Part shown: one piece after another, positions 819 through 18,966 of the stretch | How positions within the stretch are numbered: the first letter of the stretch is position 1 | Layout of the letters: each line of letters begins with the position of its first letter | NCBI GenBank assembly: GCA_023255235.1 | Contig: JALRJA010000384.1 | Span: 1 to 18,966 of the forward strand | Reading direction: 5' to 3' | Length of the DNA stretch: 18,966 nucleotides | Source: Flaviramulus sp. | GTDB taxonomy: Bacteria > Bacteroidota > Bacteroidia > Flavobacteriales > Flavobacteriaceae | The notes under the pieces: generated by a model | The model's database searches: none | The model's input: the letters and a program-made list of their open reading frames with translations, nothing else | What the model was told of the DNA's origin: nothing | Program-made: the position numbers and the translations under genes

Positions 819-1062
819 ATAAAAACCTACTGATTAATTTAATGTTAATTTTTGCTTAACATTTTTAAACAGTAAAAAGTTGACTTTTCTCATTGAATTT
901 GTTTATTATTTAGTTGAATACACATGAAAACCTAAGTAAATATCTAGAAGTTAAAACCTCTTTAATAGAATCACTATAATTAGTTAACTAAACATATAAT
1001 ACGTTTTTGATGGGATAGTATAGGGTGCTGGTTTTTGTATTAATTTAACTTTTATAAGAGCT

Positions 1063-2652
1063 TTAATTTGCTGGTTCATTTAAATACCGTCTATTAATTC
1101 TTATATTGGTCATTTCACGTAACTCGGTCAACGACTTATCCATCTTGTATTCTATTTTAAGTTCTTCTAATCTTGTTTTTAATTTATTAATTAATTCTTT
1201 ATTTTCTGGATTATTAATGATATTATTAAGCTCATTAGGGTCTTTTTCTAAATCAAATAATTCCCATTCATCAATATTGTAATAAAAGTGAATTAATTTA
1301 TACTTTTTTGTTCTAATTCCATAATGTGGTTGTACATGATGCCAATAAGGAAACTCAAAATAATGGTAATATACAGCATCTCTAAAAATGCGTTTACTTT
1401 TGTTTTCAAGAATGCTAAGAAAGCTTTTACCTTGCATATTTTTAGGTGCTTGTATTCCAGCTATATTGAGTAGTGTTGGGGCATAATCTATATTTAACAC
1501 CATATCATTTTTTACAGAACCACCTTTTATCTTATTTGGATAACGTATGAGTAAAGGCATGTGCATTGATTCTTCATACATAAAGCGTTTGTCAAACCAT
1601 CCATGTTCTCCTAAATAAAATCCTTGATCTGATGTGTATATAACAACAGTGTTTTCAGATAAACCTGTTTTGTCTAAATAATTAAGCATTTCGCCAATGG
1701 CATCATCGGCAGCTTTAACACATCTTAAATAGTCTTTTAAATAACGTTGAAACTTCCAGTTTTTTCGTTCTGCTTCAGTCATTTTTTCATCAGGTGTCCA
1801 AAACTCACCTTCTTCATTTCCATACTTATTCCAAGCAATTAACGCTTCTTCTGATAACCCTTTTGGAGGTTTGATTTTCACATCTTTTCTGTTCATGTGA
1901 CCGTCAATGCGCATCCAAGCATTTTTAGCTGAGGTTCTTCCTGTATAATCATCATTGAAAGTTTCTGGATGTGGAATTGTTACATTCTCTAAATAGTTAG
2001 CATATTCTTTTGCTGGTTCCCATGGTCTATGTGGTGCTTTAAACTGGTACATTAGCAAAAAAGGTTTGTCTTTATTAGTTCTGTTTTCTAACCATTTGAT
2101 AGCATCTTCTTTTATAACTGTTGTTGAGTATTTTCCTTTTTCTTCAACAATAGAGTCATTTGCTAATTCAAAAATAGGATTATAATATGTGCCTTGCCCT
2201 TCTTTATTTAACAGTACTTTGAAATAATCGAAACCTATTGGTGAAGTACCTAAATGCCATTTTCCTATCACTGAAGTTTCATACCCATTTTTTTGTAATA
2301 TTTTTGGAAATGTTTCCAAGCTTGAATTAAAATCACCACCTCCTTCATTTTTGAAAAAGCCATTAATATGTGCATATTGGCCTGTTAATATTGAAGCCCT
2401 TGAGGGGCCGCATATTGAATTGGTACAAAAGGCGTTATTAAAACGCATGCCTTCGTTTGCAATTCGATCAATATTTGGTGTAGGGGCTACTTTTGATAAA
2501 AAACCTTTATAGGCACTAATTGCAGCCAAAGCATGGTCATCGGTCATTATAAAAAGTATATTTGGTTTTTTAATGACTTTGTTTTTTTGTTCCGGTTTAA
2601 AGCTTAAGACCATAAAAAACAATAAGATAACAACTGTATATTTTTGTATCAT
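1063..2652 (-). CDS. Type I sulfatase (S1 family, formylglycine-dependent), exported
   Basis: This 529-residue protein is an arylsulfatase-superfamily enzyme that should hydrolyse sulfate esters on sugars. After an N-terminal hydrophobic signal (residues about 5-18), PNILFIMTDDH gives the metal-binding Asp pair D38/D39. The motif CGPSRASILTG follows at 81-91, where C81 would be converted to formylglycine. A late block, YTSDQGFYLGEHGWFDKR, supplies further metal- and sulfate-binding residues. The SICGPSR context and the PHRPW and ETFNDDYTGR blocks recall sulfatases often annotated as N-acetylglucosamine-6-sulfatase-like, but the S1 subfamily and sulfate position cannot be settled by eye. It starts 11 bases after the GH92 stop codon and is the last gene of the run. 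The motif is of the Cys type and needs a maturation enzyme, which is not encoded here. Confidence 0.93.
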   Translation of the reverse strand: MIQKYTVVILLFFMVLSFKPEQKNKVIKKPNILFIMTDDHALAAISAYKGFLSKVAPTPNIDRIANEGMRFNNAFCTNSICGPSRASILTGQYAHINGFFKNEGGGDFNSSLETFPKILQKNGYETSVIGKWHLGTSPIGFDYFKVLLNKEGQGTYYNPIFELANDSIVEEKGKYSTTVIKEDAIKWLENRTNKDKPFLLMYQFKAPHRPWEPAKEYANYLENVTIPHPETFNDDYTGRTSAKNAWMRIDGHMNRKDVKIKPPKGLSEEALIAWNKYGNEEGEFWTPDEKMTEAERKNWKFQRYLKDYLRCVKAADDAIGEMLNYLDKTGLSENTVVIYTSDQGFYLGEHGWFDKRFMYEESMHMPLLIRYPNKIKGGSVKNDMVLNIDYAPTLLNIAGIQAPKNMQGKSFLSILENKSKRIFRDAVYYHYFEFPYWHHVQPHYGIRTKKYKLIHFYYNIDEWELFDLEKDPNELNNIINNPENKELINKLKTRLEELKIEYKMDKSLTELREMTNIRINRRYLNEPAN

Positions 2653-2663
2653 AATTTTTTAGT

Positions 2664-4922: not shown

Positions 4923-4951
4923 AAATTGTTTATGAGATTTATCAAATCAAG

Positions 4952-4976
4952 AATAAAAAACCATCTTTATAGATGG
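4952..4976 (-). terminator. Rho-independent terminator after the small secreted-protein gene
   Basis: On the minus strand CCATCT-ATAA-AGATGG (4976-4961) forms a perfect 6-base-pair stem with a 4-base loop. It is followed directly by TTTTTT (4960-4955) and preceded by AAAAATT. It lies about 31 bases after the stop codon of the 5008-5328 gene and about 32 bases before the GTG of the GH92 gene. On the plus strand the same hairpin is followed by AATTTTTATT, so it could act both ways, although nothing is transcribed towards it on that strand. It suggests partial or full termination inside the gene cluster. Confidence 0.65.
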
Positions 4977-5007
4977 AATTTTTATTGCATTATGATAAAA
5001 AAGGACT

Positions 5008-5328
5008 TTATAATTTATTTTTTTTTCGATGCTCTATAAGCAATTTAAATTTTTCTTCTCCTACTAATTTTCTAAGTTTCTTGTTGTACTCTTTTTCAAC
5101 AAATTTAATTTCTTCTTTATAGCCTTCTTTGTCATTGCCATATTGTTTTTCTAACTCTTTTCGTTTGCTAAATCTATCAATATTTAAATTTAAAAATTGG
5201 GCACTTTCTTCATCAGATAAATTCATAACTTTTGATAATTCAGAAGTTATTTGATGAGCTTTTGTGTTTTCTTGTGCAAGGGAAAACGTTACTGTAAATA
5301 GGGCAATAAGGATTAGTTTATTTTTCAT
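5008..5328 (-). CDS. Small secreted helical protein, function unknown (Spy/CpxP-like pattern)
   Basis: This 106-residue protein has a clear Sec signal peptide, KLILIALFTVTFSLA with cleavage probably after A18. The mature part is about 88 residues, highly charged, cysteine-free and apparently all-helical. The pattern ITSELSKVMNLSDEESAQFL followed by many Lys/Glu residues and KLRKLVGEEKFKLLIEHRKK recalls the small periplasmic Spy/CpxP-like (LTxxQ) proteins common in Bacteroidota, where 'L-sD-Eq' steps occur twice. That similarity is weak and I do not assign a function. It sits between two sulfatase/GH92 gene blocks, 80 bases after the upstream sulfatase, and is followed by a terminator hairpin. 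A role as periplasmic chaperone or as an accessory of the glycan enzymes is only a guess. Confidence 0.75.
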   Translation of the reverse strand: MKNKLILIALFTVTFSLAQENTKAHQITSELSKVMNLSDEESAQFLNLNIDRFSKRKELEKQYGNDKEGYKEEIKFVEKEYNKKLRKLVGEEKFKLLIEHRKKNKL

Positions 5329-5408: not shown

Positions 5409-7049
5409 TTAATTAATAAATTCACCATAAGGTCTATTTTTAAATTTTTTTAAACAGTTTGATAGTATAACCTTTAATTCTTCTAACTTTTTTTCTTCTC
5501 TGCTGTGAAGATTAATTTGCTCATGAGGGTCGTTTTCTAAATTAAATAATTGATCTCTTTGAAAGTATAGCGGGTTATGCCTTGAAGAATGGTATCCCAA
5601 GTGTGAATTTCTGGTGTAATATGGTAATTTTATTTTACTTCCTTGCCATCCATTAAATAGTTGGCCATTTTGTATTTTTTGTTCACTTTCTTGATCATAT
5701 CTAACACTTATATATTTCCAGTTTTTTGTAGCTACTGCTCTGGCATATCCTAATTCAAAGTATAAATAATCATGTACTGGTTTTTGCTTTCCTTTTAAAA
5801 CGTTCTTTAAGCTTACGCCGTCTAATGGTGTTTTTACTTTTTTTAAGTTAAAACCAGCAAGCTCCAGAAATGTTGGAGTGAAATCTATATTTTGAACTTG
5901 TTCCTTGTAAACAGAATTAGCTTTTATGCCATTAGGCCAGTGCATCATCAAGGGTACTTTCACACCACTTTCATACAAAGTGGTTTTTCCATGATTATAA
6001 GCACCATGATCTGATGTGAGAACTATTAAAGTGTTTTCATAAATACCTTCTTTTTTTAATTTGTTTACTATGGCACCAATGGCATAATCAAACCAAAGTA
6101 GCCAAGAATGATTTTGATCTTTTCCTAACGATTTTATTTCATTTTTTATTTCTTGTCTTGTGGGTAGGTAAGAATATGTTTCATTTACATATCCTTCTCC
6201 TGTAAATTTTGGATTTGCGTCTAAGCTAAAGATATATTTACCATTTCTTTTTATCCATGGTGCAGGGCCATGAGGTATCGTTTCAGAGTAGTATAAGAAG
6301 AAGGGTTTGTCTTTATTTTTTTCAATAAATTCAATAGCAGCTTTATTTTTCCATTCTACATTATGAACATTTAATGAATCGTTGTAAACTTCTTTTAGGT
6401 TACCACCATAAACTGCGTTTGCATAATCAAAACCATATTCTTTAATAATATCTACCCAAACTTGATGATTATGTGCTGCTGCTTCTGAAACCGCTTCATT
6501 ATTAGGATTAGCTTCTTTATCAAATTCTTTGAATCCATGTTTAACCCAATTTTTGCGTTGTAATAGTTTATCGTGCTCCATAATATGGCTTTTTCCTACA
6601 AAACCTGTTTTGTAACCTAATTGTTGTAACAATTTTGGTAGATTGTCAAGGTCATTTTCAATCTCCGTATTATTTTCAACACGCGTCATGGTGCCTAGTG
6701 GGTGTTGTTTCATAAATATCGTACCCTTAGATCTACTGGCATACCTTCCTGTTAGCATGGTATATCTGCTTGGTGAGCATACAGAGCTTGATACATAGGC
6801 GTTACTAAAAATCATTCCATTTTTGGCTAAGCCATCTATAATGGGTGTGTGAACGTCTTGATCGCCATTAAAGCCAAATGGTCTAGATTGTACTTCAGTA
6901 TCATTTTTTGTTGGAACAATAGAGCTTTGATCATCTGTCATTATGAAAATGATATTTGGTCTTTTGGTATTTTGAGCAAATGATTTAGTAATACCAATAA
7001 ATAGTATAAAAAATAAAAAAACAATTGTTTTGTGTTTATAAGGTGTCAT
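5409..7049 (-). CDS. Type I sulfatase (S1 family, formylglycine-dependent), exported
   Basis: This 546-residue sulfatase has a signal peptide ending SFAQ (cleavage near A25). It carries PNIIFIMTDDQ with D39/D40, and the maturation motif CSPSRYTMLTG at 91-101 with C91 as the formylglycine precursor. The C-terminal metal/sulfate block LTSDHGAYNHGKTTLYESGV and the LFNLENDPHEQINL tail are standard for the fold. The insert between the Asp pair and the Cys motif (IVPTKNDTEVQSRPFG) is longer than in the other two sulfatases here, and the active-site flank differs, so it probably belongs to another S1 subfamily with another substrate position. It starts 3 bases after the stop codon of the preceding sulfatase gene, which points to co-expression. 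Confidence 0.93.
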   Translation of the reverse strand: MTPYKHKTIVFLFFILFIGITKSFAQNTKRPNIIFIMTDDQSSIVPTKNDTEVQSRPFGFNGDQDVHTPIIDGLAKNGMIFSNAYVSSSVCSPSRYTMLTGRYASRSKGTIFMKQHPLGTMTRVENNTEIENDLDNLPKLLQQLGYKTGFVGKSHIMEHDKLLQRKNWVKHGFKEFDKEANPNNEAVSEAAAHNHQVWVDIIKEYGFDYANAVYGGNLKEVYNDSLNVHNVEWKNKAAIEFIEKNKDKPFFLYYSETIPHGPAPWIKRNGKYIFSLDANPKFTGEGYVNETYSYLPTRQEIKNEIKSLGKDQNHSWLLWFDYAIGAIVNKLKKEGIYENTLIVLTSDHGAYNHGKTTLYESGVKVPLMMHWPNGIKANSVYKEQVQNIDFTPTFLELAGFNLKKVKTPLDGVSLKNVLKGKQKPVHDYLYFELGYARAVATKNWKYISVRYDQESEQKIQNGQLFNGWQGSKIKLPYYTRNSHLGYHSSRHNPLYFQRDQLFNLENDPHEQINLHSREEKKLEELKVILSNCLKKFKNRPYGEFIN

Positions 7050-7052
7050 TTG

Positions 7053-8642
7053 TTATTGTTTATTGTTAATTTCCTGCATGCCAATTCCTGGCACTCTTTT
7101 TTTGAACTCTTCATAAAAATTTCTAAGTTCGGCTATTGTGTGTTGGTTATTTTTATCGTTAATTCCGTTGTTGAGTTCTAAAGGGTCTTTTGTTCTATCA
7201 AAAAACATATCTCCAAATTCTCTGTAATCTTGTCTTGCATTTACAGGGTTGGGTTTCATAATGCCTAATTTTGCATTTTTACTAATTACTGTTGCTTGAA
7301 ACCAACTTTCAGATACTACATAATCTCTATTTAATGGTTTATTTTTTAGTAGCAAATTGGCAAGTGATTTTCCTTCAAGAGGATATTCTAATTTTGGTTT
7401 TTTTAAATTTAAAACATCTATTAAAGTGGGTGTGATATCTGCTAAAGTTACTAGTTCGGCAGTATGTTTTCCTTGATTAGTATTTCCTGGTATTCTAATC
7501 ATTAATGGAATGTTTAAAATATCTTCATATATATTATGCCCAGCAGCAGCTTTTTCTACCATTCCATGATTGCCAACAAAATCGCCATGATCTGAGGTGT
7601 AAATAATGATGGTTTCCTCTTTAATATTTGCTTTGTCTAAGGCTTGTATAATTTCACCAACGTAATAATCAACTTCTGTAACTAATGCATAATATGCTCC
7701 AATAAAATCTCTCCACAATTGCTCATCTTTAAAAGCTTTATTCATATTCCAAACTTTGTTTCCTCCATTTCTTTGGAATTGTAATAGTGGTGGTAAATCT
7801 TTTGTTGGTTGGTAAAAACTTACGGGCATTTTTATACCACTTTTTAATTTTGTGCCTTTTCCCCATTGAGAAACATTATACATATTCATAAACTTTTTTA
7901 CTGGTGTATAGGGTTGATGAGGTCTGTAAAAAGAAGCGAAGCAAAAGAAAGGTTTGTCGCTATGTTTTTGTTTTTCAATTAGTTGTATTGTTTCTTTTGC
8001 TGTATAAGCCTCCATTGTGTAACCAAATGGTAAATTAGAAACTCGTGTTCCTAGGTCTGCTGTTGGTATTTTAGTGTTTTCATCTTTACTGCCTTTTGGT
8101 CCTTTTCCAAATTCTGCAGCCCAATCATAAGAAAATTCAGTTTGATACCCTTGCTTTGTAATCCAATTTAAATAGTTTCCATTATCATCAATCTCAGGAT
8201 GCACTTCTTTTTTAACATCCCAACCTTTATCACCACCTCCTTTTAAATGTCTTTTACCAAAAGCATAAGTTTTATACCCATTATATCTAAAAATACTAGC
8301 TAAAGAAGTAGCTTTTTCTGTTACTGATGTTTCTTCATTGTTATCCATTAATCCCATTGTTCTTGGATATAAGCTTGTCATGAGAGACATTCTTGAAGGC
8401 ACACAAATGCCTCTTGTTGCATAGGCTCTATCAAAAACAACAGATTCAACTGATAATTTATCTAAATTTGGTGTGATTACATCAGGGTGATTTTCAAAAC
8501 CCATAGTTTTCTTATTATGCTGATCTGCAAATAGTATTAAAACATTTGGTTTTTTTTTAACAGTAGGTTTTAAAGAGTCTTTTTTTGGTATAAGAGACAT
8601 TAAAACAATAAAAACATACAGAACAATATTATGCAAATTCAT
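7053..8642 (-). CDS. Type I sulfatase (S1 family) with variant LMTS motif end, exported
   Basis: This 529-residue sulfatase has a short hydrophobic N-terminal signal (residues 5-18). It carries PNVLILFADQHNKK, with a single early metal Asp at D40 (ADQ instead of DDQ, as in several S1 subfamilies). The motif CVPSRMSLMTS is at 80-90, with C80 as the formylglycine precursor. The usual TG at the motif end is TS here; the essential CxPSR core is intact, so activity is likely. YTSDHGDFVGNHGMVEKAAA is the late metal/sulfate-binding block. The KRHLKGGGDKGWD segment and long middle region recall choline-sulfatase-like S1 enzymes, but the sugar position it attacks cannot be read from the sequence. It follows the MFS transporter gene by 51 bases and runs almost directly into the next sulfatase. 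Confidence 0.92.
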   Translation of the reverse strand: MNLHNIVLYVFIVLMSLIPKKDSLKPTVKKKPNVLILFADQHNKKTMGFENHPDVITPNLDKLSVESVVFDRAYATRGICVPSRMSLMTSLYPRTMGLMDNNEETSVTEKATSLASIFRYNGYKTYAFGKRHLKGGGDKGWDVKKEVHPEIDDNGNYLNWITKQGYQTEFSYDWAAEFGKGPKGSKDENTKIPTADLGTRVSNLPFGYTMEAYTAKETIQLIEKQKHSDKPFFCFASFYRPHQPYTPVKKFMNMYNVSQWGKGTKLKSGIKMPVSFYQPTKDLPPLLQFQRNGGNKVWNMNKAFKDEQLWRDFIGAYYALVTEVDYYVGEIIQALDKANIKEETIIIYTSDHGDFVGNHGMVEKAAAGHNIYEDILNIPLMIRIPGNTNQGKHTAELVTLADITPTLIDVLNLKKPKLEYPLEGKSLANLLLKNKPLNRDYVVSESWFQATVISKNAKLGIMKPNPVNARQDYREFGDMFFDRTKDPLELNNGINDKNNQHTIAELRNFYEEFKKRVPGIGMQEINNKQ

Positions 8643-8693: not shown

Positions 8694-9992
8694 TTAGGGT
8701 TTTTTATATACCATATAACCATACCAAGCTATAAATGTGAAGCATAAAAGGGGTAATATAAATGAGAAATTTATTTCTGAAACGCCCATTATAAAAGTGT
8801 CTGAAACTCCTGAGCCACCAATATCAATTATATTAGCTTGAATTTTAGGTAGTGTAGCTCCTCCAACAATAGCCATAATTAAACCTGCAGAGCCTATTTT
8901 TGATTGTTCTTCTGTTAAACCACCAAGTGCGATTCCATAAATTGTTGGGAATTTTACAGACATACAAAATGAAACGGCAACCAAACAATATAAACCTAAA
9001 ACACCTTGAATAACAATAACTCCAATTAAGAAAATTATTCCTAATAAAGAGAAAAACATTAGCAGTTTACCTGAACTTATAAATTTGAGTAAATATGTAC
9101 CTAATGCTCTGCCAAATATGAATACAATAAAGGCAATGATTTGATAGTTTCCTGCAGTAACACTATCAATTTCAATTGCTTCTGCATACTGGTAAATAAA
9201 TGTCCAACACATAATGAGACAACCTACATGAAGAATTTGAGAGATTATACCAAGAATATATTTTTTGTTTTTACCAAGAACTTTAATAGTTTCATTGAAT
9301 TTTGGTAATGTTCCTTCATCTTTAGATTGAGGCATTTTGCATATTACAAACACTACAAAAATCACAGCTATTACCAAACCCAATATAACATACGGATTAC
9401 GAATTAACATTAAATCAGAAGTTCTAATTAGTGTTTTAGATGCCTCATCAAGAGCACTAAAATTTTCAATATCATCTGATTTTAAATTTTTTAGAATAAA
9501 TTGTTGTGCTATTAATAAGCCTCCTATTAAACCAACAGGATTAAATGCTTGGGCTAAATTTAAGCGTTGTGTTGCGGTTTCTCTAGGTCCCATAGCTAGT
9601 ATGTAAGGGTTTGCAGCTGTTTCTAAAAAAGCTAAACCAAATGTTAAAATGTATAATCCTAAACAAAAAAAGAAGAAACTTTCAGATTGAGCAGCAGGGT
9701 AAAATAATAAAGCACCTGTTGCATACAGTCCTAACCCTATTAAAATGCCAACTTTATAGGAATATTTTCTCATTAAAATTGATGCAGGTAAAGCCATACA
9801 AAAATACCCTCCATAAAAAGCTGTTTGAATCCAAGCTGCTTCAGAATTTGATAATTCTAGTACTTTTTTGAATGCTTGTACCATAGGATCTGTAACAGCA
9901 TTAGCAAAACCCCATAAAGCAAACAAAGAGGTAACTAAAATAAATGGGATTAAGTATTTTTTTGGAACTAAAGATGTTTTAATAGTATTCAT
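8694..9992 (-). CDS. FucP-like MFS sugar:proton symporter (inner membrane)
   Basis: This 432-residue membrane protein has about 12 hydrophobic segments. It aligns by eye with the E. coli L-fucose:H+ symporter FucP over much of its length: LFALWGFANAVTDPMVQAF, AAWIQTAFYGGYFCMALPA, GLAFLETAANPY and RLNLAQAFNP. The two acidic residues essential for proton coupling in FucP (Asp46, Glu135) correspond to D35 and E124 here and are conserved. FucP Asn43 corresponds to A32. Members of this family in Bacteroidota carry various hexoses. With two alpha-mannosidases and no fucosidase nearby, mannose is the likeliest cargo, but this is context only. It starts 11 bases after the GH92 stop codon. Confidence 0.9.
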   Translation of the reverse strand: MNTIKTSLVPKKYLIPFILVTSLFALWGFANAVTDPMVQAFKKVLELSNSEAAWIQTAFYGGYFCMALPASILMRKYSYKVGILIGLGLYATGALLFYPAAQSESFFFFCLGLYILTFGLAFLETAANPYILAMGPRETATQRLNLAQAFNPVGLIGGLLIAQQFILKNLKSDDIENFSALDEASKTLIRTSDLMLIRNPYVILGLVIAVIFVVFVICKMPQSKDEGTLPKFNETIKVLGKNKKYILGIISQILHVGCLIMCWTFIYQYAEAIEIDSVTAGNYQIIAFIVFIFGRALGTYLLKFISSGKLLMFFSLLGIIFLIGVIVIQGVLGLYCLVAVSFCMSVKFPTIYGIALGGLTEEQSKIGSAGLIMAIVGGATLPKIQANIIDIGGSGVSDTFIMGVSEINFSFILPLLCFTFIAWYGYMVYKKP

Positions 9993-10003
9993 ATTAATTG
10001 AGT

Positions 10004-12292
10004 TTAATTATCAGCTAATTCATTTTTCATGTCAAACTCTAAAGTTCCTCCGGCAACCAATTGTTTGTGAGTAAAAAAGGGACTTGATAATTTTTCTCCA
10101 TTTAAAGTTGCCGATACAATATATTTATTTGTTTTTGAGTTATTATTGGCTTTTATAGTAAACGTTTTTCCAGACGGAAGGTTTATTTCAACTTCATCAA
10201 AAATTGGACGTCCAATAGAATAGTAAGGGCTTCCTGGACAAAAAGAATAAAATCCCATGGCATTTAAAACATACCAAGCAGACATTTGTCCACAATCTTC
10301 ATTTCCTGCAAGACCGTTTGGGTTATTAAAATATAATTCACTCATGATTTTGTTTACTAAATCTTGCGTTTTCCATGGCTGACCTACAAAATTGTATAAA
10401 TGAGTTATGTGATGACTAGGTTCGTTACCATGAGCGTATTGTCCTATTAATCCTGAGATATCACCTGAAACCTCTTTTCCCACCAATTCTGAACTTGTGG
10501 AAAACAAATCATCTAATTTATTAATGAATATTTTTTCACCACCTACTAAATCTATCAAACCTTGAACATCATGAGGCACAAACCAAGACCATTGATAGGC
10601 ATTACCTTCTGTATAATCGTCTTTTCTGTGTCTTGAAAACCGTGGATTGAAAGGTTCTCTCCATTTCCCATCTGAATTTTTTCCTCTCATAAAACCAGTA
10701 CTGGAGTCATAGTATTGGGTATATTTTTTTGAACGCTTCATGAATAGATTATAATCTTTGGTTTTTCCTAAATCTTTAGCCATTTGAGCAATACACCAAT
10801 CATTGTATGAGTACTCTAAAGCTTTTGATACAGATTCGTTTTCTAAATCAGCAGGAATGTAATTTTCATTACTATGAAACCACTTACCTTTAGGCATTAA
10901 AAGCGATTTTACTTCGTTTGATGGAAAACTAACTCCAATGGTGTCATATTTTGAGGCATGAATAATAGCTTCATAGGCTTTTTCAATATCAAAATCTACA
11001 ATTCCTTTTTTGTAAGCATCTACAATTACAGGAACAGAATGGTAACCAATCATGCAACCAGTATAGTTGCCATGCAATTCCCACATTGGCAATACCCCGC
11101 CTTGGCTGTATTGACCTAACAAAGTTTTTATAAATTCATTAGTTCTGTTTGGGTCTGTAATTGTTTTTAGGGGGTTATATGCCCTAAAGGTATCCCATAA
11201 AGAGAATACGGTATAGATGTTTTCTTTGTTACTTTGGTGAATTTCTCTATCTAGTCCGCGGTATCTAAAATCTACATCAGAAAAAATATTTGGAGCAATA
11301 GAAGTATGGTATAACGCTGTATAAAAAATTTTCTTTTCATTTTCACTACCTCCTTTTACATTAATTAATGAAAGTTCTTTTTGCCAAGATTTATGAGCCT
11401 CATTTTTAACTTTGTTAAAATTCCATTTATTAATTTCTGATTCTAAATTATTTTTAGCTCCTTGGTAATCTACTGACGAAATACCAACTTTAGCCAGCAC
11501 TTCTTCTCCAGCAGAGGTGTTAAAGGTTAAAACAGCAACTAAATGTTTTGATTTTACTTTAGGTAGTTCATTTATTTTTTTTCCATTTTCAAAAAAGGTA
11601 CATGAAAAGGGTTTATTAAATTTTGCATTAAAGTAGATATCTTGTTTTGTAGCCCATCCTCCAGAGCCTTTATAGCCAGCAATTTCTGTATTAGAAATTA
11701 ATTTAAATTGATGATTAGGGTTTCTATCTTCATAAATATTGTGTGATAAATCTATTATAACACCCGATTGCCCAGCTTTATTAAATTTATATTTATGAAA
11801 GCCTGCTCTTTTTGTTGCAGTTAGGGCTACTTCTATATTGTAGTCTGTTAATAAAACACTGTAAAATCCTGGTGAGGCATTTTCATTTGAATGATTAAAC
11901 CTAGATCTGTAGCCACTATCTGGATTTTCTGGTGTTCCAGGAATTACTTTTGCTTCACCAGAAAAAGGCATAAATAAAAAATCACCCAAATCACTAATGC
12001 CTGTTCCGCTTAAATGTGTATGTGAAAAACCTATAATTGAGTTGTCTGAGTAATGATATCCACCGCAAGCATCCCAACCTAATGTTCTGGTATCAGGACT
12101 TAATTGAACCATTCCGTAAGGAGTAGTAGCACCAGGAAAAGTATGACCATGACCTCCAGTTCCTATAAAATTATTTACATGAATAGTGTTGTCAGTTAGC
12201 TTTTTAGTAATCTCAAAATCAATGGTGTTAAAAGATAAAATACAAATTAATAAAAAGGGTAAATAAGCAAAGTATATTTTAGTTAGTTTCAT
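10004..12292 (-). CDS. GH92 family exo-alpha-mannosidase, classical type
   Basis: This 762-residue protein has the full GH92 signature. The N-terminal beta-sandwich block is VNNFIGTGGHGHTFPGAT, then PYGMVQLSPDTR and IGFSHTHLSGTG. The catalytic block DDYTEGNAYQWSWFVPHD holds the likely general acid E562, and LAGNEDCGQMSAWYVLNAMG holds N664-E665-D666 in the general base region. GH92 enzymes remove terminal alpha-linked mannose with inversion and need calcium. The signal sequence (residues 1-21) has no proper lipobox (Cys17 is preceded by Ile), so a periplasmic enzyme is likelier than a lipoprotein. The ATG overlaps the end of the upstream GH71/99-like gene by 14 bases, so the two are probably translationally coupled and act on the same glycan. 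This copy has the common N-terminal type, unlike the GH92 at 2664-4922. Confidence 0.95.
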   Translation of the reverse strand: MKLTKIYFAYLPFLLICILSFNTIDFEITKKLTDNTIHVNNFIGTGGHGHTFPGATTPYGMVQLSPDTRTLGWDACGGYHYSDNSIIGFSHTHLSGTGISDLGDFLFMPFSGEAKVIPGTPENPDSGYRSRFNHSNENASPGFYSVLLTDYNIEVALTATKRAGFHKYKFNKAGQSGVIIDLSHNIYEDRNPNHQFKLISNTEIAGYKGSGGWATKQDIYFNAKFNKPFSCTFFENGKKINELPKVKSKHLVAVLTFNTSAGEEVLAKVGISSVDYQGAKNNLESEINKWNFNKVKNEAHKSWQKELSLINVKGGSENEKKIFYTALYHTSIAPNIFSDVDFRYRGLDREIHQSNKENIYTVFSLWDTFRAYNPLKTITDPNRTNEFIKTLLGQYSQGGVLPMWELHGNYTGCMIGYHSVPVIVDAYKKGIVDFDIEKAYEAIIHASKYDTIGVSFPSNEVKSLLMPKGKWFHSNENYIPADLENESVSKALEYSYNDWCIAQMAKDLGKTKDYNLFMKRSKKYTQYYDSSTGFMRGKNSDGKWREPFNPRFSRHRKDDYTEGNAYQWSWFVPHDVQGLIDLVGGEKIFINKLDDLFSTSSELVGKEVSGDISGLIGQYAHGNEPSHHITHLYNFVGQPWKTQDLVNKIMSELYFNNPNGLAGNEDCGQMSAWYVLNAMGFYSFCPGSPYYSIGRPIFDEVEINLPSGKTFTIKANNNSKTNKYIVSATLNGEKLSSPFFTHKQLVAGGTLEFDMKNELADN

Positions 12293-13586
12293 TCGGATAA
12301 AAAGGTTTTTGTTTGGTTAATGGTATTTTATTTTTTAACATTTTAGAAGCCATACCTGTGAGCCACAAATAATAATCACTAGGTAAATCTTCATAAGTAA
12401 GAAATTTGCTTTTTCCGGTAGGTGGGTTGTTAGTAACTTTAAAAATACAAGTACCTTCATCGATTTCGTCAAACATGGCAACATATATTGTTTTAACATC
12501 AGTAGAAATTGTATTGTAAAATTGTCTCCATAAAAAATCACCTTTTAATCTTGGTATTTGATTTAAGAGACTCATATCATTTTTTAAATTTGCCCAACTA
12601 AAACCAGGAAATACCACAGGCATATAAAGCAACCCATTATCATCACACCATTTTTTGTCTTTTTCAATCCATTCCTCCTTATGAATATCGGCAGAAAGGA
12701 GGTCATGGTATCTGCCAGGTGTCCAAGGGTGAACAATGTCAGACATTTTAATAACTTCGTGTAATTTTGAAAGGTTTATAGCATCTCTAGAAAGTGTTCT
12801 CCAACCTGTTGGAACCCCTAAGAGAACAGAACAATTACCATATTTATGATTGGTTTTAAAAAACTGTATTAATTCTTTAATATTGTCTAAAGTATAGTTG
12901 TCTAAACGGTTAAAACCTACTCCCCAAATTGAAATAACAGCCTTGTCTTTATAAGTTAATATATTAGGATTATTAGGGTCGTTTAATTGATATTTATTAA
13001 CTAAATTTTTCCAATCATTTATTATGGTTTCTACAACATTTTCACTTTTAGAACCCGATAAGTCATACATTAAACTTAAAATCCTGCTAGTATTCTTAGC
13101 TGCATTAAAACAGTTGTCAAATACTTGATTGTAATTTGTGATTCTTTTTTTCTCTCGGTTAAGACTTGTTACAAATCGCTGCACAAAAACCCCGTCAATA
13201 TCATAATCTTTCATCCACTTAAAATGGCGATTAACGGTTTTAAAATTGGCAGAACTAAAAACATAAGCATATTTACCATCTTGGTGCTTGAAAGCTGTTT
13301 TGTGAATCTCATCAGAATCAAATTCTCTTAAATCTGGCCAAAAATCTATAGATGCACTACCTGGTTTAAAGTTTCCTTTGTTGCCATAATGTTTCCAACC
13401 TAATTCTGAACCGTCTTTTTCTGCATTAAACCAACCTTGGTAACCAGCTAATATTTTGCCTTCAATAGAATTGTTTAGTAATTTTGTAGATATATCTACT
13501 TTTTCTATAATTGGTTTTTTACTTTGACAAGAAAGGTTAAAACTAATAACTAAGCATAGTTTTACAAATAGAATATTATGATTCAT
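12279..13586 (-). CDS. GH71/99-like lipoprotein, probable endo-acting or debranching glycosidase
   Basis: This 435-residue protein starts with a signal ending FNLSC, with C20 as the likely lipid-bearing residue. The body resembles the GH71/99-like group often annotated 'xylosidase' without proof: ILAGYQGWFNAEKDG, FKWMKDYDIDGVFVQRF, DIVHPWTPGRYHD and YVAMFDEIDEGTCIFK. The last block matches the GH99 catalytic motif FNEWHEGTQIEP: the two glutamates three residues apart (E333/E336 in the bacterial GH99 enzymes) are present as E374/E377. GH99 enzymes are endo-alpha-1,2-mannosidases/mannanases and GH71 enzymes are alpha-1,3-glucanases; the mannosidase context favours an alpha-mannan substrate. Overall similarity to true GH99 is low, so it may represent a separate family. 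It overlaps the downstream GH92 start by 14 bases. Confidence 0.8.
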   Translation of the reverse strand: MNHNILFVKLCLVISFNLSCQSKKPIIEKVDISTKLLNNSIEGKILAGYQGWFNAEKDGSELGWKHYGNKGNFKPGSASIDFWPDLREFDSDEIHKTAFKHQDGKYAYVFSSANFKTVNRHFKWMKDYDIDGVFVQRFVTSLNREKKRITNYNQVFDNCFNAAKNTSRILSLMYDLSGSKSENVVETIINDWKNLVNKYQLNDPNNPNILTYKDKAVISIWGVGFNRLDNYTLDNIKELIQFFKTNHKYGNCSVLLGVPTGWRTLSRDAINLSKLHEVIKMSDIVHPWTPGRYHDLLSADIHKEEWIEKDKKWCDDNGLLYMPVVFPGFSWANLKNDMSLLNQIPRLKGDFLWRQFYNTISTDVKTIYVAMFDEIDEGTCIFKVTNNPPTGKSKFLTYEDLPSDYYLWLTGMASKMLKNKIPLTKQKPFYPNETN

Positions 13587-13629: not shown

Positions 13630-14709
13630 TTAGTTTACTTTGAATTCTTCTCTAAGAACTTGTAGGTATTGATCACCATAAGTATCTGCTGATTCTATTT
13701 GAGTTCCAAAATTCCAATTATTAAATGAATCTAAGATTACAATTTTACTTGCTCCAGAAGCGCCTCTAGCAATATTGCAAAAATCTCTAAACCAGGTAAT
13801 ATCTTTTTCTATAACATAGGTTGGACTATTTGGGTTATCTAGTTTAAAATTTATAGATGGTGAAATGGTTGGTATATATTCAATATTATACTTAAGCCAA
13901 GTTTCTTTATGATATCTGAAGGCTATATCTGTGAATTTATCAAAAGTAATTGACCTATCGTATTGATTCACATTTATTAAAGCATAAGTTTTGTGGGTTA
14001 CGGCATCTACACCATTTACAAATCTAAAATCGAATCGTAAAGTTGGAGTCCACTCTATTTGTTCTCCAATAAGAAATAATTCAAAGCCTTCACTATTTAA
14101 TGCAGCTCTCATTTGTTGGTATAAAGCGGCATTATCATCTGAAAAGAGCAAGTGAGCGTTAAATATATACACAAGATTTTTACCATCTACTTTCATGTAG
14201 TTAGACTCCTGAAAATAGGGTATCATTAATTTAAAATCATCTATAAATTTTGTAACTAGACCCTTACGTTCAATATTGTTATTGTTATTAATTCCCATGT
14301 TAGAAAAGTTGTAACTTATAGCAAAATTAATATCGGTTGCATTGGGTGCTGAAAGTAATCCGTTTATAAAATTAATATCCTGGTTGTGTTGTGCCATATT
14401 ATGTGTTGATCTCATTTCAAAAATAAAGAAATCAATACCAGCAGTTTGTGCTTGTCTTATGTGTTCTTCATATACAACAGGATCGCCTAAGGTTCCATTA
14501 TAAATTCCAATACTTGGTTCTTCAACGACTCTGTTATTTCTTACAAATCTTGCATATTTTGCACCAACAGAATAATTAGATGTAACTTCAACTTGAGTAA
14601 TATTATAGTCTAAAATACCATTGCCAGCTGTGGTTATATTGTCTTCAGTACAAGATAAAATAGAGAAAAAAAGTATAAATGCTATAAGTTTATTAATTGT
14701 TTTCATCAT
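13630..14709 (-). CDS. GH99-fold lipoprotein lacking the catalytic glutamates, probable surface glycan-binding protein
   Basis: This 359-residue protein has a lipoprotein signal, FFSILSC, with C20 followed by TEDN. Acidic residues just after the Cys are typical of surface-exposed Bacteroidota lipoproteins. The fold matches GH99: IGIYNGTLGDPVVYEEHIRQ, AGIDFFIFEM, KVDGKNLVYIFNAHLL, YIPTISPSINFKLDNPNS and DSFNNWNFGTQIESADTYG. In the last block, at the place of GH99 SFNEWHEGTQIEPA, the two catalytic Glu are N331 and F334. The Asp-rich 'PGYDD' block is also changed (PSINFK). Its length is normal for GH99 (about 340-380), so it is not truncated. It begins 8 bases after susD, the usual slot of a SusE-like glycan-binding protein. 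I infer a binding protein built on an inactive enzyme; a changed catalytic mechanism is the alternative. Confidence 0.8.
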   Translation of the reverse strand: MMKTINKLIAFILFFSILSCTEDNITTAGNGILDYNITQVEVTSNYSVGAKYARFVRNNRVVEEPSIGIYNGTLGDPVVYEEHIRQAQTAGIDFFIFEMRSTHNMAQHNQDINFINGLLSAPNATDINFAISYNFSNMGINNNNNIERKGLVTKFIDDFKLMIPYFQESNYMKVDGKNLVYIFNAHLLFSDDNAALYQQMRAALNSEGFELFLIGEQIEWTPTLRFDFRFVNGVDAVTHKTYALINVNQYDRSITFDKFTDIAFRYHKETWLKYNIEYIPTISPSINFKLDNPNSPTYVIEKDITWFRDFCNIARGASGASKIVILDSFNNWNFGTQIESADTYGDQYLQVLREEFKVN

Positions 14710-14717
14710 AATTCAAA

Positions 14718-16472
14718 TTAAAGTTTTGTGTAAGTAACTCCTGCAGCTATTAAGTCATCTTCAGAAGGCCCATAAAAATTTGTCGCAAAATCTTGATTAA
14801 ATTCGGCTAGTAGTTCTGTATAGTTGATAGGCGAAAAGGGTTTATTCATTTGTAAAGGACTTAATAATGTATTGCCATTTTGTAAAAGAGAAACGGCTGC
14901 TGTAAAACCAACATTGTTAAAACCACTTTCTGATAACGGTGGATAAACCATTCTCTCTGGTATTTCAGACCAGTCTAGCCCTGTTGAACCATCTGGACTA
15001 AAGTGAGCAATTATTGGTAACATTCTAGTTCTTTTTTGTAAACACCATATATCATGACCTTGATTGAAACTAGCTAGCCATCTTTGTCTTACTATTTTAT
15101 CTAAAGGGTTTGCCGAAATACCGCTTGTTTGAACACTATATAAATCTTTATCTCCTAGGCTTGAAGTTCCCCATTTAACGCCGTCTTGTTGTAGGTAATG
15201 ACTTAATTTTGATGCCACTCCATATTGTGCAAATGAGTTAGCAATACCAGATGTATAATATTGTTCAGCTGTTCTATTTCCGCCCCAACCTTTTAATTGA
15301 GCTTCTGCCCGAATAAAATACATTTCAGATGCTGTAATTATATTAAAACTCATATCTTGAGCCATAAAGGTTTCTGTTTTTGGTCTACAATAATTTTGAT
15401 TAGGAATTCCATTTAAAATATTATCATTTTGATTTAAATTCCAGCCATCAACCAAACCATTGCCTCCTAAAGGTCTTCCAAAATATGCTAATTCATACCG
15501 GACTCTAACTTTTTCTGTTGAACCTGATTCAAAAACTGAGTCTATAACCTGAATAGGATTACTTGAGGGTTCTATAATTTCAAATAATCTTGGATCTCTA
15601 TATGTTTTTAAATTTAACATATAATGAAAGTTCACATTTGGCACAATATCATTTTGAGGGTTAACAAAGATATATCTGTCATAATTGAAAGACCAGTTTT
15701 GTTGTTCACTACCCCATTTCATGACCGCATTTTCAGCATTCACATTGATTAGTGCATCTTCATTTTGTATTACTTCAGTGCCGTGCTGTTCTGCTAAGGT
15801 TGGAAAGCCCTCAGAAATTCTAAGAGCTATTTTTAAACGCAGACTGTTTGCAAATTTAATCCATAATTGGTTATTGCCATTAAAAATAGGATCTGGTAAT
15901 AATTGGTCACCATTAAGATCTATATTTTCACCAGCTTCTTTTAATAAATTTAATATATCTGTATATATATACTCTTCTGTTGAATAATTGGTGGCGTTTA
16001 AGCCAAGAGAAGCTTCTTCATAAGGTACACCACCAAATGTTGATACCAGTACAGAATAGATATAACTTTTCCAAATTTTAGCAATGAGAACTCTATTTTT
16101 ATAATCTAGATTGTCTGAAAATTTATCAATGATTTCTTGATTGTTTTTTATGCAATCTACATAAAACTGCCTCCACCAATTATCTAATTGATTTTCATTG
16201 TAAAAGAAATTTGGGAACTGACCTCCTTTACCACCATAATAGCTGGCATACATCATAAACATTTGATCATTCATATGACCGCCAACTAAATCAAGTGTGC
16301 TTTTTACAGATCCTGCAAATAAGTTTTCAGGAGCGGCAGAATTAAAGGCATTAGGATCAATATTTAATTCGTCAAATTGGTTTGTGCATGATGTGATTAC
16401 AATAAATGCAAAGAGCAAGAATAGACCTTTTAAAGAATTATTATGTTTATTTAATTTTTTCATTTTTTTCAT
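14718..16472 (-). CDS. susD: SusD/RagB family outer-membrane lipoprotein (SusD-like_2 type)
   Basis: SusD proteins form the extracellular lid of the SusC transporter and bind oligosaccharides. This 584-residue protein has a lipoprotein signal, FAFIVITSC, with C29 as the lipid-bearing residue. The mature start TNQFDELNIDPNAF is characteristic of the SusD-like_2 subgroup. Further SusD blocks are WIKFANSLRLKIALRIS, ASEMYFIRAEAQLKGWGG, RQRWLASFNQGHDIWCLQKR and the late ERMVYPPLSE. The start at 16472 (MKKMKK) lies 2 bases after the susC stop codon; M4 would serve equally well. The ligand cannot be inferred from sequence alone; the neighbouring enzymes point to a sulfated mannose-rich glycan. Confidence 0.96.
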   Translation of the reverse strand: MKKMKKLNKHNNSLKGLFLLFAFIVITSCTNQFDELNIDPNAFNSAAPENLFAGSVKSTLDLVGGHMNDQMFMMYASYYGGKGGQFPNFFYNENQLDNWWRQFYVDCIKNNQEIIDKFSDNLDYKNRVLIAKIWKSYIYSVLVSTFGGVPYEEASLGLNATNYSTEEYIYTDILNLLKEAGENIDLNGDQLLPDPIFNGNNQLWIKFANSLRLKIALRISEGFPTLAEQHGTEVIQNEDALINVNAENAVMKWGSEQQNWSFNYDRYIFVNPQNDIVPNVNFHYMLNLKTYRDPRLFEIIEPSSNPIQVIDSVFESGSTEKVRVRYELAYFGRPLGGNGLVDGWNLNQNDNILNGIPNQNYCRPKTETFMAQDMSFNIITASEMYFIRAEAQLKGWGGNRTAEQYYTSGIANSFAQYGVASKLSHYLQQDGVKWGTSSLGDKDLYSVQTSGISANPLDKIVRQRWLASFNQGHDIWCLQKRTRMLPIIAHFSPDGSTGLDWSEIPERMVYPPLSESGFNNVGFTAAVSLLQNGNTLLSPLQMNKPFSPINYTELLAEFNQDFATNFYGPSEDDLIAAGVTYTKL

Positions 16473-16474
16473 TT

Positions 16475-18966
16475 TTAAAAGTCAAATTTTAAATTAATCC
16501 CAATTGTTCTAGTAGGTAAAAACGAACCGTATTCAATTCCTTGTCCATTTCCAGAGGTTGTTTGAGATTCTGGATCAATTCCTTGAGGTGTGTTTCTGTA
16601 AATTGTCCACAAATCTCTTCCCACAAATGATGCTTTTATTGTTTTAAATGGTGTTTTTTTTAAAGCGTTTTGTTTTAAAGTATAGCTAAAAACAACTTCT
16701 CGTAATTTCACATAAGAAGTATCATAAATCCATCTCCTTTGATCTTGAAGACCATCAAATCCATATTGCATTGGATCAATGTAAATATTTTGATATATAA
16801 TATTCCCATCGGCATCTCTTTCTGCCACCCAATTTCCATCGGCATCTTGTACTGCAAAAGCAGCGTTTTCATAGGCTCTTCCTTTTGCTCTATCGGTATC
16901 ATTATATGAGTTGCCAAATAAACCAATACCTCTTCTTTCATTGTTATTTTCCCCTAAAATAGAATTTGAAAGAATCCAATCGTCTCGTCCTGGTAATGAA
17001 TATGAATGAATTCCATGGTTAACAACTTTTGACATGGTTCCTGAATATAAATCACCACCCTTTTTTACGTCTATTAAAAAATCGAAACTAAATCCTTTAT
17101 AAGATAAAGAGTTTCTAATACCTCCTATCCAATCAGCTTGAGCATTTCCTAAAATTTGATCTGATTCTACACGAATTCTTCCATTTGCTTGCAACAGAGT
17201 TACTCCTGTTTCTGGATCTGTAGCAGGTACATTACCTCTTAACATCCCAAAGGGTTTACCAACTTCTGCATATACACCTACGTTGAACCAACTTCTTAAT
17301 AGCAACCTATCAATGCCATCAACTAATGAAACAACATTTGATCTATTTTGAGACCAGTTTATATCTGTTTTCCATTTAAATTTTTTGTTAAATATTTTGG
17401 CAGACATAAACACCTCCCAACCTTTGTTTTGAATTTCACCCGCATTAATAATATTTGATGAAAAACCTGATGTTGGGGTAACTTGCACAGGAATTATTTG
17501 ATTGTTAGTACTTGATTGATAATAAGAAACATTCATTGATAGTTTATTTTTAAACAGTTTTGTTTCAAAACCAAATTCTGTAGACGATGTTAACTCTGGT
17601 TTTAGGTTTTCATTATTTTTTTGAGTTTGTAGAGCTAACCAAGGGTTTCCATTATAATTGCCACCAAAGTTATAAGTATTTAATACTCTAAAAGATCTAG
17701 TGTCATTTCCTACTTGTGCAAAAGACGCTCTTAATTTGCCAAAAGTTAATAGTTTATTTCTGGGTATAAACTCTGAAAACAATACTGCTCCGCCAATAGA
17801 AGGATAAAAATATGAGTTATTATTTGATGGAAGTGCAGATGACCAGTCGTTTCTTGCAGTAACATCAAGGTAATAGGTTTCTCTATAACCAAGAGAGAGT
17901 GAGCCAAAAACAGAATTCACTCTTTTGTTATCAGCAACTTCTCTTATAATAGGAATATCTTCTGTGTTAAATAAACTGATAACATCTCTTACAATTAATG
18001 AATTAATTACAGAAATTTGATTTGAGAAACGCAAATCAAATCGGTTTACACCAGCAAGTGATACTATTGAAAAGTCATTAAATTTTGTTTCGTAATTTAA
18101 AATGGCTTCATAGTTCCAGTTTTGCCTATCTGAATTTGTTTTAATTAATAAGCCATCAGGGTCATATGCAGCTCCTTTATTGTTAAACTGAAAATCACGT
18201 CTGGTATTTATAACACCATTTACTTTTGTAGATAAGTTTAATCCTTTTAATAATTCCCAGTTAAAACCTACATTTCCTACCAAATTGTTTGATTCATCTT
18301 GGTTAGAGTTTTCATGTAAATTCCAATAAGGGTTATTAAAAGGGCCATTGTAGGTTAAAGCATTGTTGTTTAAATCTTTGTATGGAAGCAAATTTCCTTC
18401 AAACATATCAGGCCTCATGAACATGTAATTATTAGCAGGGTTTCTCTCACTACCATTTTGATATAATCTATTGTTTACTTTCAAATTAGTGTATAAAACA
18501 CTCATATTTGTTTTAAGCTTACTTGATAAATTTTGAGAAATTCTAAGGGTAAAATTATTTCTTAGTTGTTGTTCCTGCCTTTCCATAACATGATCGCTAA
18601 TAGTATTGTTATAAGCAAATCGTACAGAGCCTTGTTCATTTCCTTTAGAAACCGCTATATTATTAGTGAGCACAGACCCTCTTTTATAAAGTTCTTTAAC
18701 ATTTTTAGTGTATGGCTGGTAAATAGTTTGTTCCCCATTAAAACCAATAACTTCTTGTCCTGCAAAGGGCATTCCATAAGCTCTTACATGTTGTCCAATA
18801 GTTGGTAAGCCTGTTATAGGATCAATATCTCCTGTATTACGGGCTAACCTACCAGAGGCACCACTACCATATGCATATTGATAATTTGGATATTCTCTAT
18901 TTGAAATGACTGAGAAATTTGAGTTTATAGATACATTTATTTTGCTATTATCTGTAATTCCTTTTT
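16475..18966 (-). CDS. susC: SusC/RagA family TonB-dependent outer-membrane transporter, C-terminal part
   Basis: The frame is open from the right edge to the TAA at 16475 and gives 830 codons. An ATG at 18772 is internal: in-frame coding continues upstream (GITDNSKINVSINSNFSV, then NYQYAYGSGASGRLARN), so the gene starts outside the window. The signal peptide, carboxypeptidase-like domain, TonB box and most of the plug are therefore not seen. SusC hallmarks are KNVKELYKRGSVLTNNIAVS, the many alternating beta-strand segments (YRETYYLDVTARNDWSS, SIGGAVLFSEF, ASFAQVGNDT), TSSTEFGFETKLFKNKLS, SYKGFSFDFLIDVKKGGDLY, and a C-terminus ending LPTRTIGINLKFDF with the terminal aromatic of outer-membrane barrels. 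It imports oligosaccharides together with the SusD encoded 2 bases downstream. Confidence 0.96.
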   Translation of the reverse strand, partial: KGITDNSKINVSINSNFSVISNREYPNYQYAYGSGASGRLARNTGDIDPITGLPTIGQHVRAYGMPFAGQEVIGFNGEQTIYQPYTKNVKELYKRGSVLTNNIAVSKGNEQGSVRFAYNNTISDHVMERQEQQLRNNFTLRISQNLSSKLKTNMSVLYTNLKVNNRLYQNGSERNPANNYMFMRPDMFEGNLLPYKDLNNNALTYNGPFNNPYWNLHENSNQDESNNLVGNVGFNWELLKGLNLSTKVNGVINTRRDFQFNNKGAAYDPDGLLIKTNSDRQNWNYEAILNYETKFNDFSIVSLAGVNRFDLRFSNQISVINSLIVRDVISLFNTEDIPIIREVADNKRVNSVFGSLSLGYRETYYLDVTARNDWSSALPSNNNSYFYPSIGGAVLFSEFIPRNKLLTFGKLRASFAQVGNDTRSFRVLNTYNFGGNYNGNPWLALQTQKNNENLKPELTSSTEFGFETKLFKNKLSMNVSYYQSSTNNQIIPVQVTPTSGFSSNIINAGEIQNKGWEVFMSAKIFNKKFKWKTDINWSQNRSNVVSLVDGIDRLLLRSWFNVGVYAEVGKPFGMLRGNVPATDPETGVTLLQANGRIRVESDQILGNAQADWIGGIRNSLSYKGFSFDFLIDVKKGGDLYSGTMSKVVNHGIHSYSLPGRDDWILSNSILGENNNERRGIGLFGNSYNDTDRAKGRAYENAAFAVQDADGNWVAERDADGNIIYQNIYIDPMQYGFDGLQDQRRWIYDTSYVKLREVVFSYTLKQNALKKTPFKTIKASFVGRDLWTIYRNTPQGIDPESQTTSGNGQGIEYGSFLPTRTIGINLKFDF

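Follow-up and report, generated by a model that had tools for sequence, protein, structure and literature searches.

The window (the whole stretch of 18,966 nucleotides that was analysed) carried a SusCD pair directly followed by a gene for a GH99-like lipoprotein. Downstream of the latter, the order was GH195-like, GH92, MFS transporter, two sulfatases, a small secreted protein, GH92 and sulfatase. The features were as follows:

16475..18964, minus strand: susC-like gene, truncated at the edge of the window (TIGR04056, 330.4 bits, cut-off 368.25)
14718..16472, minus strand: susD-like gene (SusD-like_2), separated from the GH99-like gene by 8 bases
13630..14709, minus strand: gene for a 359-aa lipoprotein of GH99 fold that lacks the catalytic glutamates (OpGH99A type)
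14638..14709, minus strand: signal peptide with lipobox Cys20 and downstream acidic residues (residues 1-24)
13687..13728, minus strand: altered GH99 motif SFNNWNFGTQIESA, codons of residues 328-341, in which N331 and F334 occupy the catalytic positions
12279..13586, minus strand: GH195-like gene with a lipobox-like Cys20 (Pfam GH99, 39.3 bits against a cut-off of 33)
10004..12292, minus strand: GH92 alpha-mannosidase
8694..9992, minus strand: major facilitator transporter (MFS_1)
7053..8642, minus strand: sulfatase (PF00884)
5409..7049, minus strand: sulfatase (PF00884), sharing 51-53% identity with the sulfatase end of Sulf1-GH195 type fusions in loci L022 and L037
2664..4922, minus strand: second GH92 alpha-mannosidase
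1063..2652, minus strand: sulfatase (PF00884)

The susC-like gene stayed under its TIGR04056 cut-off because its front is missing. The GH195-like gene kept an intact ExxE pair (FDEIDEG, E374 and E377) and, as far as its sequence tells, likely codes for an active neighbour, a second endo-mannanase. The label GH195 rests on the Sulf1-GH195-T9SS architecture as presented in PMC13063451, and not on a GH195 model. This gene and the adjoining GH92 gene overlap by 14 bases. The small secreted protein (5008-5328, 106 residues), with the second GH92 gene on one side and the sulfatases on the other, displayed weak, sub-cut-off family matches. The start of another secreted protein, cut by the window end, was found at 3-728, with a sub-threshold Ice_binding match.

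Contig C367 of the same genome (locus L037) is probably the upstream continuation of the window locus. It carries, at 891-5147, a gene for a 1418-residue protein in which a sulfatase domain and a T9SS tail flank a GH195-like middle part (59% identity to the product of the window gene 12279-13586), and the front of a susC-type gene adjoins it. The content of C367 agrees with the missing front of the susC in the window and with the surface endo-enzyme reported in PMC13063451. According to that work (2026), enzymes of Polaribacter and Ochrovirga pacifica degrade diatom C6-sulfated alpha-1,3-mannan via Sulf1, GH195, GH92 and Sulf2, and the Polaribacter Sulf1-GH195-T9SS enzyme cuts sulfated alpha-1,3-mannan. 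Sulf1-GH195 with a T9SS sorting domain, taken here as the mark of a sulfated alpha-1,3-mannan locus, was thus present on C367 and, like the Polaribacter and Ochrovirga mannan locus, the genome under study possesses a gene of this architecture together with GH92, sulfatases and SusCD.

Structure prediction yielded a GH99-like barrel for the 13630-14709 protein (pLDDT 91.6), i.e. the GH99 fold. At the profile level, the protein scored 19.7 bits against Pfam GH99 (PF16317, cut-off 33), and 38.7 bits against WbsX (PF14307, cut-off 25.1), the WbsX match spanning only profile positions 139-349 of 350. It shares the barrel fold and the SFNxWxxGTQIE block with GH99 endo-alpha-mannosidases and mannanases (BxGH99, BtGH99, MANEA), yet differs from these enzymes by the loss of both catalytic glutamates and by its position under the Pfam GH99 cut-off. 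With WbsX proteins, whose cut-off it passed, it has in common the N-x-W and the E of the block.

Residues 328-341 aligned without gaps to the GH99 block of 4ACY. In the column of residue 331, wild-type and E404Q chains of MANEA differed in a profile search, which identifies this residue as the equivalent of one of the catalytic glutamates. The second catalytic position, three residues further on, corresponds to residue 334, as deduced from the titles naming BxGH99 variants E333Q and E336Q. The register relative to GH99 was therefore set by sequence alignment and the E404Q chain, and both glutamates of the ExxE pair were found replaced, by N331 and F334. This replacement was the central claim of the sequence-only reading, and it was further upheld by a family alignment. 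The first search found 129 homologues, the best 120 of which were used, and the profile search 166, of which the best 120 were likewise used, 15 of them new; 9 and 46 homologues, respectively, lay outside the matches listed, at most 15 of the 46 being listed by the first search. Together with the window protein and 14 proteins from the loci described below, these 135 listed homologues formed an alignment of 150 sequences (148 distinct), including a few fragments of 222 residues.

Among these listed matches, no E occurred at either ExxE position in any of the 150 members. Homologues next to susD that keep the pair, a counterexample for which the sequence-only reading had left room, are thus missing from the family alignment. 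Position 331 was occupied by D (114), N (34), T (1) or S (1). Position 334 was never D or E and varied widely, with K or R in 61 of the 150 sequences and F in the window; so variable a position is no fixed ligand contact. Eight positions were invariant in all 150 sequences (N330, W332, Q337, E339, D158, Q217, W220 and R229) and D235 was nearly so. The loss is specific to the OpGH99A-type clade, since ExxE was retained in 14/14 strong flavobacterial WbsX relatives, against 0/150 here, and in all 21 GH195-like sequences compared from these loci, window included. A lone oddity of the window strain was ruled out by the same 150 aligned members.

The lipoprotein signal anticipated from the sequence, with acidic residues after Cys20, was also found in nearly all of the aligned family. 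In the window protein T-E-D directly follows Cys20. The lipobox Cys was present in 140 of the 142 aligned sequences having a residue there; once reduced to distinct sequences, 138 of the 148 had the Cys, all 138 with one or more acids between +1 and +5 and 130 with at least two. Judging from this signal, the protein would be located at the surface as an outer-membrane lipoprotein.

The known relative is OpGH99A from O. pacifica (PDB 5NGW), to which the window protein is 40% identical (E 5.6e-72, residues 36-357 counted from M2), a full-length homology. Locus L011 of O. pacifica S85 encodes the 5NGW chain, residues 20-387 being identical except for the first two, where the crystallised construct differs from the lipobox Ser-Cys. 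There, too, the GH99-like gene has susD immediately upstream and GH195-like and GH92 genes downstream, so that both proteins share the replaced catalytic residues and the same slot in a GH195-like/GH92 locus. OpGH99A has an additional loop behind the motif, and its second catalytic position is occupied by I where the window protein has F. The abstract of its 2017 description reportedly placed it in a putative sulfo-mannan locus and suggested a non-catalytic, carbohydrate-binding role. The structure was published by Robb, Mystkowska and Hehemann (2017, doi 10.1002/pro.3291) under a title, as cited in PMC13063451, on a GH99-related protein 'lacking catalytic machinery'. Proteins of this kind have therefore been known since 2017 and the window protein is a further example. 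In this respect the sequence-only reading, which had proposed a new kind of surface protein, has to be corrected: loss of the glutamates, integrity of the gene, lipoprotein signal and susD slot all stood, but newness did not, because a homologue from the same type of locus had already been crystallised.

Could the protein still be an enzyme, working by another mechanism through D/N331 and a further acid? The predominance of D at position 331, the invariance of E339 and D158 and the near invariance of D235 would fit such activity. However, both the window protein and 5NGW have N at 331, and residual catalysis is unlikely because position 334 is acidic in none of the 150 members. E339 is not a new catalyst since it is common to GH99 and WbsX proteins that retain ExxE. 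The title of 2017 speaks against activity as well. In the study of PMC13063451, another 18 putative enzymes of the locus seemed inactive on the mannan; they are listed in a supplementary table of that paper and may include the GH99-like protein. We consider an active enzyme very unlikely.

The gene is intact, as had been proposed. Genes were compared from eight loci for the GH99-like protein and from seven each for SusD and the GH195-like protein, taking the best eight pairs per gene. Pairs with a synonymous distance below 0.5 were drawn from L003-L006 and L022, the window not being among them. Six such pairs of the GH99-like gene gave dN/dS ratios of 0.083-0.157, six of SusD 0.110-0.148, and seven of the GH195-like gene, among its best 8, 0.095-0.149. 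For the window itself, comparison of the GH99-like gene with that of L002 gave 0.142 at a synonymous distance of 1.3, which is near saturation. No internal stop was found in the eight GH99-like genes compared. The GH99-like family is thus under purifying selection, similar to SusD and the GH195-like gene. A chance neighbour of susD in the course of decay, with which loss of the catalytic residues taken alone would be compatible, is ruled out by these ratios and by the absence of internal stops; the constant slot described below argues in the same direction, and we regard the probability of decay as negligible.

Twelve other distinct loci were available (L002-L011, G123 and G255), after removal of L014 and L015 (copies of L010 and L011) and of L012 and L013 (short versions of G123 and G255). 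The slot directly after susD, already recognised in the window, found its equivalent in all 11 homologues whose upstream side was visible, susD being directly upstream in each; in the twelfth, L008, the GH99-like gene starts at the contig edge. SusC preceded SusD in the nine loci where this could be seen. The next downstream gene was GH195-like in 8 of 11 loci, and the others displayed a 508-residue protein without Pfam match (L009, from Persicobacter), a GH92 (L010) or a 710-residue protein without Pfam match (G255). In G255, a GH92 and a GH195-like gene lie about 25 kb and 34 kb, respectively, from the GH99-like gene. Since the susD slot is constant while the downstream gene changes, the stable unit is SusC-SusD-GH99-like.

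A similar picture emerged at the genome level. Within 397 genomes of the same family, the GH99-like protein occurred in five, its own included (E up to 1e-10), and the SusD of the GH99-like loci in the same five (E up to 1e-60), while the GH195-like gene was recorded in six (E up to 1e-40). The five genomes fall into five genera. As the genes are linked and the genomes come from related organisms, these co-occurrences do not amount to five independent events. A search at class level, covering 395 genomes, recovered the GH99-like protein in its own genome only and added no contexts. This strict SusD partnership of an OpGH99A-type protein, seen both in the loci and in the genomes, is what the present study adds.

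Conservation was also compared between the two ends of the barrel, with strand ends taken from DSSP of the predicted model and the seventh strand (277-280) placed manually. This comparison gave no support for extra conservation on the cleft side: invariant positions numbered 16 of 80 at the catalytic end and 14 of 88 at the other end, and mean entropy was slightly higher at the catalytic end (1.35 versus 1.24 bits). The old active site is thus not singled out, conservation being similar at both ends. For the same reason, a docking or scaffolding function independent of glycan binding has to be weighed, in which the barrel would dock on SusC/SusD like the GH or SGBP subunits of utilisomes and aid assembly or gating. 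The strict tie to one SusD and the stable four-part outer-membrane complexes described for levan and dextran systems (PMC7618045) agree with such a structural accessory. On the other hand, aromatic and polar residues are invariant or nearly so at the end of beta8 (N330, W332, Q337, E339) and of beta5 (Q217, W220, R225), and a purely structural role appears rather unlikely.

The window protein is probably a non-catalytic pseudo-glycosidase of the OpGH99A type, acting as surface partner of the adjacent SusCD in a sulfated alpha-mannan locus and holding mannan. The arguments for a surface partner are its lipoprotein nature, its association with one SusD lineage, selection on the family and a sugar-enzyme fold without catalytic residues; from these we infer glycan binding and physical contact with SusCD. 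The lipoprotein would be exported to the outer membrane and act as partner of the SusCD importer, near which it would probably hold sulfated alpha-1,3-mannan chains or oligosaccharides. A surface enzyme of the Sulf1-GH195 type may then cut the chains held there, and GH92 enzymes and sulfatases would complete mannan degradation. Like SusE/SusF-like surface glycan-binding proteins, the window protein is a lipoprotein encoded after susD. The levan SGBP, however, consists of two Ig-like domains and a binding domain (PMC7618045), as opposed to a glycosidase barrel. More tentatively, and as a possibility we would not put at even chances, the barrel may have been recruited as the dedicated SGBP of one SusCD lineage for diatom sulfated alpha-1,3-mannan, so that a dead mannanase would hold the place taken in utilisomes by an endo-glycanase or an SGBP, and K or R at 334, present in part of the clade (F in the window), would touch sulfate.

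In the passages considered here, PMC13063451 deals with the cutting of mannan and does not explain its capture ahead of import, nor do these passages give a role to the GH99-like lipoprotein. The main text mentions GH99 a single time, as a relative of GH195, and the terms SGBP, surface glycan-binding and SusE are absent from it. The inactive barrel is a good candidate for this capture step because it is strictly paired with one SusD lineage. PMC13063451 describes sulfated alpha-mannan as a carbon source that diatoms exude in the surface ocean. In loci rich in GH92 and sulfatase genes, an older survey mentioned 'a gene distantly related to GH99' and saw in it an indication of a glycoprotein substrate (PMC6298971); it may be a gene of the OpGH99A type. 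As far as the excerpts of the open-licence literature go (including PMC13063451, PMC6298971, PMC7618045 and PMC11573768), they contain no statement that the OpGH99A-type clade consists of SGBPs. This clade also clearly exemplifies how an enzyme fold can lose catalysis and yet stay under selection.

The sixth genome with a GH195-like gene, G169, had no match to the GH99-like protein. In this genome (L036), GH195-like and GH92 genes are found behind a different SusCD pair (SusD_RagB type), with a DUF3823 protein directly after susD:

L036 (G169), 3550-4239: DUF3823 protein directly after susD
L008, 6538-7227: DUF3823 protein directly after the susD of another SusCD pair

In L008 this arrangement lies just downstream of the GH99-like gene, both kinds thus occurring in one locus. 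In these two mannan-type loci the DUF3823 protein takes the slot that belongs to the GH99-like protein elsewhere. A glycan-binding role of the DUF3823 protein is unproven, since its name is absent from the literature matches listed. With regard to the GH195-like genes, a stop codon interrupts the reading frame of the G255 copy (L038, about 9928-11136) close to its front, although SusCD and the GH99-like gene of that genome are open, and the only stop in the copy of genome G388 was the terminal one.
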